A DNA stretch of 38,952 nucleotides from Betaproteobacteria bacterium (lineage in GTDB: Bacteria; Pseudomonadota; Gammaproteobacteria; Burkholderiales; SG8-41), in assembly GCA_016202615.1 (NCBI GenBank), contig JACQOI010000326.1:1-38952 (forward strand), in the 5' to 3' direction. The position numbers and the translations under genes are program-made. Positions within the stretch are counted from its first letter, which is position 1; every line of letters begins with the position of its first letter. The notes beneath the pieces are model-generated. The model was not told the origin of the DNA. It worked only from the letters and a program-made list of their open reading frames with translations, and did no database searches. Shown in pieces: positions 3,307 through 12,088 of this stretch.

Positions 3307-5298
<1,992 letters not shown>

Positions 5299-5378: not shown

Positions 5379-6524
5379 ATGGCCTTCGACATGAATCTTG
5401 TGCAGCGCGGCGCGCGCCTGCGCCGCAGTCCCTTTTTCGAGGCTACGCAGCGCCACGGCGCCAAGGCGTACACCGTGTATAACCACATGTTGTTCCCGAT
5501 TTGCTTCAGCGACCTCGAGGAGGAGTACTGGCATCTGCTGAATCACGTCACGCTATGGGACGTCGCGGTGGAGCGGCAGGTCGAGATCACGGGCCCCGAT
5601 GCTTTCGCTTTCACCAACCTGCTGACGCCGCGCGATCTTGCGCGCTGCGCGGTGGGCCAGGGCAAGTACGTCGTCATCACCTCGAAGGACGGCGGCATCA
5701 TCAACGATCCGGTGCTGCTGCGGCTGGGAGAAAACCACTTCTGGCTCGCGCTCGCCGACAGCGACGTGCTGCTGTGGGCGCGCGGCGCGGCGTTGAACTC
5801 CGGCTTGCGGGTGAAGATCCGGGAACCCGACGTTTCGCCCGTGCAGATCCAGGGCCCGAAGGCGAGGGAGGTGGTGCACGCGCTCTTCGGTGAGCGCGTG
5901 CTGCAATTGCGCTATTACTACTTCCTCGAAACCAGCCTGGACGGCATCCCGGTCGTCGTTACGCGCACCGGATGGTCGGGCGAAGTGGGCTACGAAATCT
6001 ATTTGCGCGACGGCAGCCGGGGCGACGAGCTGTGGGAACGCATCATGGAGGCCGGCAAGCCGCACCATATCCGCCCGACCGGCCCCTCCGACATCCGCCG
6101 GATCGAAGCCGGCATCCTGAACTGGGGCGCGGACATGACGCTGGAGAACAACGTCTATGAAGTCGGGCTCGAGCGGCTGGTGGACGATGACAAGCCCGCC
6201 GGCTACATCGGCCGCGAGGCGCTCAAGCGGATCAAAGCGGCGGGCGTCACGCGCAGGCTCGCGGGCATCGAGATTGCGGGCGAGCGGATCGAGTTCAACG
6301 CGACACCATGGCCGGTCAAGGCGGGTGACGAGCCCGCGGGCCGGGTCACTTCCGCCATCTGGTCTCCGCGTCTCAAGAAAAACATCGGCTACGCGATGCT
6401 CCGCGCGATCGCGGTTGCGCCCGGAACCGCCCTGAAAGTGCTCATACCCGGCGCCGGCGAACGCCCGGCCAAGGTGGTTCCCCGGCCGTTCGTGGACCCG
6501 AAGAAGAAAATCCCGAAAAGCTGA
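5379..6524 (+). CDS. Aminomethyltransferase family protein (GcvT/DmdA-like)
   Basis: 'RLRRSPFFEATQRHGAKAYTVYNHMLFP...LWDVAVERQVEITGPDA', 'LLTPRDL', 'DGGIINDPVLLRLGENHFWLALADSDVLLWA', 'VQIQGPKA'; pattern resembles the DmdA branch of the GcvT fold. Confidence 0.85.
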   Translation: MAFDMNLVQRGARLRRSPFFEATQRHGAKAYTVYNHMLFPICFSDLEEEYWHLLNHVTLWDVAVERQVEITGPDAFAFTNLLTPRDLARCAVGQGKYVVITSKDGGIINDPVLLRLGENHFWLALADSDVLLWARGAALNSGLRVKIREPDVSPVQIQGPKAREVVHALFGERVLQLRYYYFLETSLDGIPVVVTRTGWSGEVGYEIYLRDGSRGDELWERIMEAGKPHHIRPTGPSDIRRIEAGILNWGADMTLENNVYEVGLERLVDDDKPAGYIGREALKRIKAAGVTRRLAGIEIAGERIEFNATPWPVKAGDEPAGRVTSAIWSPRLKKNIGYAMLRAIAVAPGTALKVLIPGAGERPAKVVPRPFVDPKKKIPKS

Positions 6525-6642
6525 CCTGCCGCCTGCGGGCGACACCCGCCGTTCCCCATCACCGCCGCCGCAGGAGACCCCGAGCGACGCCATCTTAGAT
6601 GTAGATTAATACGAGTCGCAGATCGGCCTTAGTGGTTACCAC

Positions 6643-6840
6643 TAGGAGTTTGTCGGACTTAACCCCGACAAACTCCTAATGCAAAACCGGCCATAGGAGA
6701 ATTGCAGAAAAGGATTACCGATATGCTAATTCACGCGCGCTTTTCGTCAAATTCGACCGCTTCGGCTGGGTTTTTTCTGAAGTGTCAGCCGGTTTTGCTT
6801 TTAGCAGCCTGTACGGACTACTAAGTCCGACAGGCTGCTA
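6643..6840. mobile_element. MITE-like element copy A with nested terminal hairpins
   Basis: Left end TAGGAGTTTGTCGGACTTAACCCCGACAAACTCCTA...GCAAAACCGG; right end, reverse complemented, TAGCAGCCTGTCGGACTTAGTAGTCCGTACAGGCTGCTAAAAGCAAAACCGG; partly shared with 9915-10069. Confidence 0.7.
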
Positions 6841-6873
6841 GAGCGATGCCGACCCGCGCCAAGACACCACAAT

Positions 6874-7899: not shown

Positions 7900-8958
7900 C
7901 TATTCGGGCTTGATACCCGCTCCCTTGATGACCTTGAACCACCTCTCGGTCTCTGTCTTAATGAAACTTGCGAACTCCTCCGGTGTGCTCGTGACCGCCT
8001 CAGATCCATCTGCCTCTACTCTCTTCCGGGTTTCGGCGGATTGCAGACTTTTCACCAACGCGGCATTCAGCCGCATGATGGTGTCCTTGGGCGTTCCTGT
8101 TGGAGCCAATACGCCGTAACGGTTTTGGACTTCAAGCGCCGGCAGGCCGGCCTCCGCAACGGTCGGTACGCCGGGCAATGCCGATGAACGCTTCAAGCCC
8201 GTAACCGCAATAGCACGCAACCGCCCGGAGTGGACCGCCGGCACGGCCGTCAGGATATCGCTGAAGATTAAATCGGTCTCTCCCGTCATTACCGACAGCA
8301 CGCCGGGCGAAGTGCCCTTGTACGCGACATGGACCATCTTCACCTTGGCCATGGCCTGGAACAACTCGGCCGCCAAGTGGCCAAAAGCGCCGACTCCGGA
8401 CGAGGCGTAGTTCAACACGCCAGGTTTGGACTTGGATAACGCGATCAATTGAGTAAGGGTCTGGGCTGGCACGGCAGGATGAACCAGCAACACGTATGCA
8501 CTCATCGCTACCGGTGTAATAGGCACAAAGTCTTTCTGCACGTTGTACGGCAGTTTTGGATACAGAGCGGGCTGGATAATCATAGGGCCGCTACCCCCTA
8601 GCAGCAGCGTATAGCCATCGGGCGCTGAGTTCGCGACATGCTCGAAACCTACTCTTCCCCCCGCGCCAGCCCGATTGTCCACGATCGCCTGCTGCTTGAA
8701 GCTGTCGGTTAACAGCAGAGCTGTCAGGCGTCCCAATACATCCGCGCCTCCCCCAGGCGGAAAAGGAACGACCACGCGGATCGGACGATTGGGATATGTT
8801 TGTCGTGGTTGGGCCGATGCTGCAGCAACGAAAGCGGACGTGGCGACAGCCATGCCCATGAAACACCACCGGAACCAGCGAACGGCCGTGTACGGTCTCC
8901 GTGGCCACACCGCGTTTAGAAATGAATTTAAAGTTGCCTGAAGAGCCGGCGCTGTCAT
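7900..8958 (-). CDS. Tripartite tricarboxylate transporter substrate-binding protein (Bug/TctC family); start uncertain
   Basis: 'YPNRPIRVVVPFPPGGGADVLGRLTA', 'DNRAGAGGRVGFEHVANSAPDGYTLLLG'. Confidence 0.93.
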   Translation of the reverse strand: MTAPALQATLNSFLNAVWPRRPYTAVRWFRWCFMGMAVATSAFVAAASAQPRQTYPNRPIRVVVPFPPGGGADVLGRLTALLLTDSFKQQAIVDNRAGAGGRVGFEHVANSAPDGYTLLLGGSGPMIIQPALYPKLPYNVQKDFVPITPVAMSAYVLLVHPAVPAQTLTQLIALSKSKPGVLNYASSGVGAFGHLAAELFQAMAKVKMVHVAYKGTSPGVLSVMTGETDLIFSDILTAVPAVHSGRLRAIAVTGLKRSSALPGVPTVAEAGLPALEVQNRYGVLAPTGTPKDTIMRLNAALVKSLQSAETRKRVEADGSEAVTSTPEEFASFIKTETERWFKVIKGAGIKPE

Positions 8959-10882: not shown

Positions 10883-12088
10883 ATGAACGAGGAAACAGCC
10901 GTAACAACCAAGGCCGCAACCGGACCGCTCGCCGGGGTCCGGATCATCGATCTCACCACGACCATTCTAGGCCCGCTGGCGACCCAGACGCTGGGCGATA
11001 TGGGAGCCGATGTCATCAAGGTCGAACCGCCGATAGGCGATCTGAATCGTCAGATCGGGCCGTCGCGCCATCCGAAAATGGCGGCGTTTTTCGTAAACGT
11101 GAATCGCAACAAGCGGAGCATCGTTCTCGACCTGAAGCGACCGGCGGCGCTTAAGGCGTTGATGCGCTTGGTCGAAGGTGCGGATGTGTTCGTCCACGGC
11201 ATGCGTCCACAGGCTGCCGAGCGGCTCGGTATCGATTATTCCGCCGTGGCAGCGTGCAACCCCGGAATCATCTATGCTTCCGCCTCGGGCTACCGCCATG
11301 ACGGGCCGCGCCGGGAGCGCCCGGCCTATGACGACATCATCCAGGGCGAAAGCGGCATTGCCGGGCTGGTCGGCAGACAGACCGGCGAACCGCGCTACAT
11401 CCCGACGATAATCGCCGACAAGCTCACCGGTTCTACTTTAGCTTGCGCCATTGGCATGGCCCTGTTCAGCCGGGAGCGCACCGGCCGCGGCCAGGAGATA
11501 CACGTGCCGATGTTCGAGACCATGGTGTCGTTCCTGCTCGTCGAGCATCTGTGGAGCGCTGCTTTTCAGCCGCAGCAAGGCAGCCTGGGCTACGTTCGTC
11601 TGCTCACGCCTTACCGCAGGCCCTTTGCCACCAGGGACGGTTTCATATGCGTGATGGCCAACACCGATGCGCACTGGAAGGGCCTGCTGACGGCTGTGGG
11701 CTGTCCCGAACTTTTTGCAGACGAGCGCTTCGCGACGCTCGCCCAGCGTTCGCGTCATTTCGATGAGAACTACGCGCTCATTGCCGAGCGGATCGGGCAG
11801 CAGGGCACCGCCGAATTGCGCGAGAAGCTGGATGCGGCAGACGTTCCGAACGGCGCCATGAATACCCTGGAGGACTTGATGAAGGACCCGTACCTTGAGG
11901 CCACCGGATTCTTTCACGATTATGAGCATCCGAGCGCAGGACCGATGCTGACGACTTCGATACCGATGCACTTCTCTGGCACCCCGGGGAGCATAAGGCT
12001 GCCACCACCGCTCTTGGGTGAGCACACGCAGGAAGTGCTGCGGGAACTCGGCTACAGCGAACCGGAAATCGCCGCGATTGCCGGGTAA
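10883..12088 (+). CDS. CaiB/BaiF CoA-transferase family protein
   Basis: 'GPLAGVRIIDLTTTILGPLATQTLGDMGADVIKVEPPIGD', 'NRNKRSIVLDLKRPAALKALMRLVEGADVFVHGMRP'. Confidence 0.95.
   Translation: MNEETAVTTKAATGPLAGVRIIDLTTTILGPLATQTLGDMGADVIKVEPPIGDLNRQIGPSRHPKMAAFFVNVNRNKRSIVLDLKRPAALKALMRLVEGADVFVHGMRPQAAERLGIDYSAVAACNPGIIYASASGYRHDGPRRERPAYDDIIQGESGIAGLVGRQTGEPRYIPTIIADKLTGSTLACAIGMALFSRERTGRGQEIHVPMFETMVSFLLVEHLWSAAFQPQQGSLGYVRLLTPYRRPFATRDGFICVMANTDAHWKGLLTAVGCPELFADERFATLAQRSRHFDENYALIAERIGQQGTAELREKLDAADVPNGAMNTLEDLMKDPYLEATGFFHDYEHPSAGPMLTTSIPMHFSGTPGSIRLPPPLLGEHTQEVLRELGYSEPEIAAIAG

Follow-up and report, generated by a model that had tools for sequence, protein, structure and literature searches.

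A high-copy MITE with hairpin-duplicated terminal inverted repeats, linked to IS1182-family insertion sequences, in a betaproteobacterial genome

The 196-bp element at 6644-6839, which sits between convergent ORFs in a betaproteobacterial contig (GenBank JACQOI010000326.1; “the window” denotes the whole stretch of 38,952 nucleotides that was analysed), is a gene-less MITE that is linked to the IS1182 family of ISs and whose terminal inverted repeats (TIRs) are unusual in being duplicated as hairpins. The explanation that we favour, with a probability of roughly 0.87 for the whole, is that the MITE is mobilised by an IS1182-family transposase, inserts at CT^AG (the caret marks the insertion point), and carries hairpin ends that were made by template switching.

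The nested hairpins, the long-range repeat, and the CTAG at both boundaries that a first-pass annotation of this DNA had described are all present in the sequence (Table 1). Folded as single-stranded DNA, positions 6641-6842 reach -53.4 kcal/mol compared with a mean of -23.6 (sd 3.0) for shuffled sequences (z = -9.95; 0/200 shuffles as stable), and the predicted structure consists of the left hairpin, the long-range pairing of GCAAAACCGGC, and the right hairpin. The annotation had proposed TIRs of about 50 nt: the inverted ends are real, but the transposon TIR proper comprises just the outer ~19 nt, the GCAAAACCGG part being specific to the family, and the mobile unit is the AG...CT stretch of Table 1. 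Read inward from 6839, the outer arm of the right hairpin is the canonical TIR of the IS1182 subgroup (AGCAGCCTGTCGGACTTA), and the left end bears a variant, AGGAGTTTGTCGGACTT, of the canonical form AGCAGCCTGTCGGACTT. The substitutions reported to be matched between stem strands are also real: the stems of the two ends (GGAGTTTG/CAAACTCC vs. GCAGCCTG/CAGGCTGC) differ in 3/13 pairs, and in 3/3 of these the opposite strand matches.

Table 1. Coordinates in the window of the element, its parts, and a second copy of the family
Feature	Position	Strand	Basis
Complete miniature element, AG...CT, 196 bp	6644..6839	+	74 full copies aligned, with unrelated flanks; empty sites in congeners
Left half of target site, CT (inferred CT^AG)	6642..6643	+	Outer left dinucleotide variable, AG of element near-constant
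Right half of target site, AG (inferred CT^AG)	6840..6841	+	Outer right dinucleotide variable, CT of element near-constant
Left-end hairpin (stem of 13 bp) formed by TIR AGGAGTTTGTCGGACTTA and an inverted second arm	6644..6677	+	Fold; copy comparison
Right-end hairpin	6803..6839	+	Fold; TIR comparisons; copy comparison
Internal inverted repeat GCAAAACCGGC, left arm	6681..6691	+	One or both sides missing in deleted copies
Internal inverted repeat, right arm	6788..6798	+	155-bp subfamily and 73/74-bp copies lack it
Second family copy, internally deleted, 154 bp, right boundary CTAA	9915..10068	+	Copy alignment

Copies with defined ends are dispersed through the host genome, bearing out the initial description of the element as MITE-like, non-autonomous, and potentially multicopy. 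We scored 41 copies in this genome at 77-92% identity, and the right-end TIR TAGCAGCCTGTCGGACTTA occurs exactly 118 times, the reversed control giving 0; the copy number is at least about a hundred, in an assembly (4.23 Mb, 400 contigs) that is 80% complete and broken at repeats. When the copies are aligned, the ends are sharp and the flanks unrelated. Another genome of the same genus (G003) contains many copies, and the elements of G015-G017, which represent three further genera of the family, have conserved ends and a diverged middle. One orthologous insertion is common to the host and G003 (L030 and L294), so some copies must be old. The comparison of empty sites that had been proposed succeeded at four sites in congeners (L002/L067, L020/L068, L283/L320, and L053/L335), the second locus of each pair aligning to the joined flanks of the filled site in pairwise alignments with relatives that are only about 80-90% identical. 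Joined flanks fall in frames of at least 200 aa in 53% of cases versus 87% for random nearby points (19 sites, a small sample), which suggests a bias toward intergenic insertion sites. Within the sensitivity of blastn, the element is absent from the plasmid collection searched. At seven loci of the host genome (L004, L007, L013, L018, L019, L028, and L030), adjoining long frames stop exactly at the CTAG boundary, which supplies their TAG stop codon. Genes near the element in the window encode a BipA/TypA GTPase (3307-5298), a GCV_T-domain protein (5379-6524), a TctC receptor (7900-8958), and a CoA-transferase III (10883-12088), and are compatible with a betaproteobacterium.

The element contains no transposase and is hence non-autonomous, as first noted, and the search for a transposase with matching termini leads to an IS1182-family subgroup that includes ISAzo2: the outer ~19-bp TIR, AGCAGCCTGTCGGACTT, is the terminus of this ISAzo2-like subgroup. 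Close relatives of the subgroup transposase, first seen in G063, are encoded in 6 of 399 genomes of the order, and in 6/6 of them the TIR lies at the end or ends of the transposase locus; at L158, L160, L161, and L162 it flanks the locus on both sides. The TIR is likewise borne by ISAzo2, on an Aromatoleum plasmid, and by a complete 1.6-kb IS of Bradyrhizobium erythrophlei (L256), whose 452-aa protein matches NF033551 with 367.7 bits (E = 1e-109; cut-off 270 bits). TIR-bearing IS1182 fragments occur in congeners and other family members (G003, G004, and G018), and the TIR does not accompany the more distant IS1182 proteins that G003 and G150 encode (25-28% identity). An intact partner IS was not found in the host assembly, in which, at 80% completeness and 400 contigs, one could be missed; one of the host's IS1182 fragments (L132) contains a TIR-like stretch, which was taken as chance or undecidable. 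Scanning viral contigs with the transposase gave no match, and the TIR string was not found in the literature searched. From the shared termini, we infer that an IS1182-family transposase moves the element in trans.

Other miniature elements have the TIR in common and differ in their interiors (121, 163-165, 205, 245 bp, and more); they are found in Proteobacteria, Verrucomicrobia, and other records, most of which are metagenome bins, so that single outlying taxon names need care. Elements of a tight 163-165 bp, again with differing interiors, occur in Endozoicomonas, Undibacterium, Pseudomonas, Halothiobacillus, and a deltaproteobacterium (L192, L196, L201, L204, L220, L231, L241, and others). 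A ~205-bp element with yet another interior is common to genomes of different genera (L058, 1501-1705 of G018:C158; L101; L110). Micro-elements of ~46-58 bp, barely more than two inverted TIRs, are apparently inserted at CT^AG-like sites (L121, from 1501 of G150:C6; L181, L222, and L261).

The interior of the element is dispensable. A 154/155-bp form without the right internal repeat is present at three sites, among them the second copy in the window, whose deletion junction (GACCGC^TAGCAG) is also found at L308 and L312 (G000:C98 and G000:C8, both in the host genome). A 109-bp deleted form occurs at two unrelated sites, two copies of 73 and 74 bp comprise nothing but the two hairpins, several deleted copies are missing the GCAAAACCGG part on one or both sides, and one copy (L311) is missing the left inner arm and keeps proper ends. 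Movement therefore does not depend on a complete internal GCAAAACCGG repeat, and the deleted forms suggest that the ends alone are enough; the 73- and 74-bp copies may have transposed in their own right or have arisen by deletion in place.

The boundary CTAG had been read as a possible 4-bp target duplication, which the copies do not favour. Among the 74 full copies, the terminal AG/CT of the element deviates in 6/148 cases and the dinucleotides just outside it in 34/148, usually on a single side. An identical 4-mer at both ends is seen in 1 of the 36 copies that have at least one non-CTAG boundary, and in that copy an inner T-to-C change is mirrored in the other arm of the hairpin; CTAG at both boundaries, found in 38/74 copies, is compatible with either reading. 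Because the outer dinucleotides vary, the inner AG/CT is near-constant, and the 4-mers rarely match, insertion of an AG...CT element into CT^AG without net duplication would appear to fit better than duplication of CTAG. This reading conflicts with published reports, which give direct repeats of 4 bp for members of the IS1182 family (PMC3281130, PMC3852290) and for the IS1182-like MITEPye1 (PMC11578231). At a CTAG target, the two readings yield identical sequences, which therefore cannot separate them, and the relatives with empty sites, at only about 80-90% identity, are too diverged to decide between them.

The inverted second arm that turns each end into a hairpin is specific to this family. 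Scored as the best ungapped match between the first 16 bases and a nearby inverted copy, it reaches at least 12/16 in 70/74 left ends. Right ends score 10-16, their ungapped match being reduced by an indel of one base in the inner arm. The score is at most 11/16 in 62 other TIR-bearing elements, and the ends of autonomous ISs do not form the duplication. The outer right arm is conserved, with 53/81 right ends identical over 16 bases, and the inner arm is variable, a pattern indicative of selection for the TIR sequence rather than for pairing. Covariation at left ends is modest: three pairs are doubly changed, with 6 doubly changed cells versus 0.6 expected under shuffling, alongside 21 unpaired cells. 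At right ends, 6/10 length-variant outer arms are equal to their own inner arm, inserted bases included (L279, L290, L291, L306, L054, and L286; P about 5e-4, an estimate that is conservative as 2 of the 10 are probably misparsed substitutions), and the loops of L025 and L297 (left) and L291 (right) are exactly inverted. Arm homogenisation with spacer inversion is the signature of polymerase template switching (PMC8604942), a process that can both create and maintain stems (PMC8794818). Since the block-copied insertions and inverted loops match this signature, the compensatory changes need not mean selection, and template switching is likely to be the source of the hairpins as well as of the matched changes. 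Where the first-pass annotation had offered “selection or conversion,” the data thus favour conversion by template switching; selection on hairpin structure is possible, and the two are separated only in part.

A reading in which the element is the same MITE but direct selection keeps its hairpins, the transposase or the replication machinery making use of a folded single strand or of two TIRs stacked at each end, strikes us as unlikely. A perfect left stem of at least 13 bp is kept by 58/80 copies, and in full copies from several genera the inverted second arms are recognisable despite the diverged middle; on the other hand, the autonomous IS ends do not fold in this way, the second arm is seen in 0/62 of the other TIR-bearing elements, L311 has proper ends without its left inner arm, and block copying accounts for the pairing without selection. 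We are more doubtful still that the terminal hairpins are a functional adaptation, that is, a doubled, foldable transposase site providing a replication-coupled or higher-affinity route that would explain the high copy number, with insertion into CT^AG occurring unduplicated; if true, this would be a mode of transposition undescribed for IS1182-family elements in the literature surveyed.

A conserved structured RNA or a bidirectional transcription terminator, with compensation selected for pairing, would be in keeping with the very stable fold, the convergent-ORF setting, and the compensated pairs. It is nevertheless very improbable. No Rfam family reaches its gathering threshold in the window, and the search for intrinsic terminators (a T run after a G+C-rich stem) gave 0 sites, against 0.4 expected by chance; the first-pass annotation had named a match to such a family as what would speak against a transposable element. 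The element is moreover mobile, its copies having unrelated flanks and, in some cases, empty sites in relatives; its inner arm varies while the outer TIR arm is the conserved one; and its stem changes are often uncompensated. A secondary effect of the element on transcripts is possible. With its many copies, its CTAG/GTAG-like flank, and a spacer between two inverted palindromes, the element also recalls REPINs and BIMEs (PMC3116915, PMC2817692), in which a RAYT (Y1 tyrosine transposase) mobilises two inverted REP palindromes; the host genome holds 10 Y1_Tnp matches. Element ends lie near 0/10 of these loci, leaving no RAYT link there, and the TIR belongs to an IS1182-family IS, which makes a REPIN/BIME-type origin scarcely credible.

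In the IS1182-mobilised mechanism that we prefer, a transposase of the ISAzo2-like subgroup would recognise the outer ~19-bp TIR in trans and put the AG...CT element into the middle of CT^AG, apparently without net duplication. In this lineage, each TIR would have gained an adjacent inverted copy of itself, producing a hairpin at each end; template switching between arms probably made these copies and now homogenises them, and the homogenised arms would then appear as compensatory changes.

Known systems share parts of this arrangement. ISAzo2 and related IS1182-family ISs have the same terminal sequence as the element, CTAGCAGCCTGTCGG(A/G)CTT, but are about 1.2-1.7 kb long, carry a transposase gene, and have ends without hairpin duplication. 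MITEPye1 from Paracoccus yeei resembles the element in being non-autonomous and intergenic, with IS1182-like 18-bp TIRs and predicted folding, and differs in its low copy number (1-3), its reported direct repeats, and its alphaproteobacterial host; terminal TIR hairpins are not among the features described in the portion of its report used here (PMC11578231). The ISMac2-linked MITEs of Methanosarcina acetivorans (160/169 bp; PMC3852290) are also non-autonomous and attributed to an IS1182-family partner, but have 25-26-bp IRs, an archaeal host, and 7-14 copies. What distinguishes the element is the hairpin at each end, which the 62 other TIR-bearing elements lack.

These results connect a hairpin-ended repeat family, present at high copy number in uncultured Betaproteobacteria, with a named subgroup of transposases; the 19-bp terminus of this subgroup occurs in Proteobacteria, Verrucomicrobia, and other phyla. 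With dozens of natural replicates, the family suggests that template switching can yield compensatory stem changes, and it serves as a warning that covariation by itself is not proof of a functional RNA.
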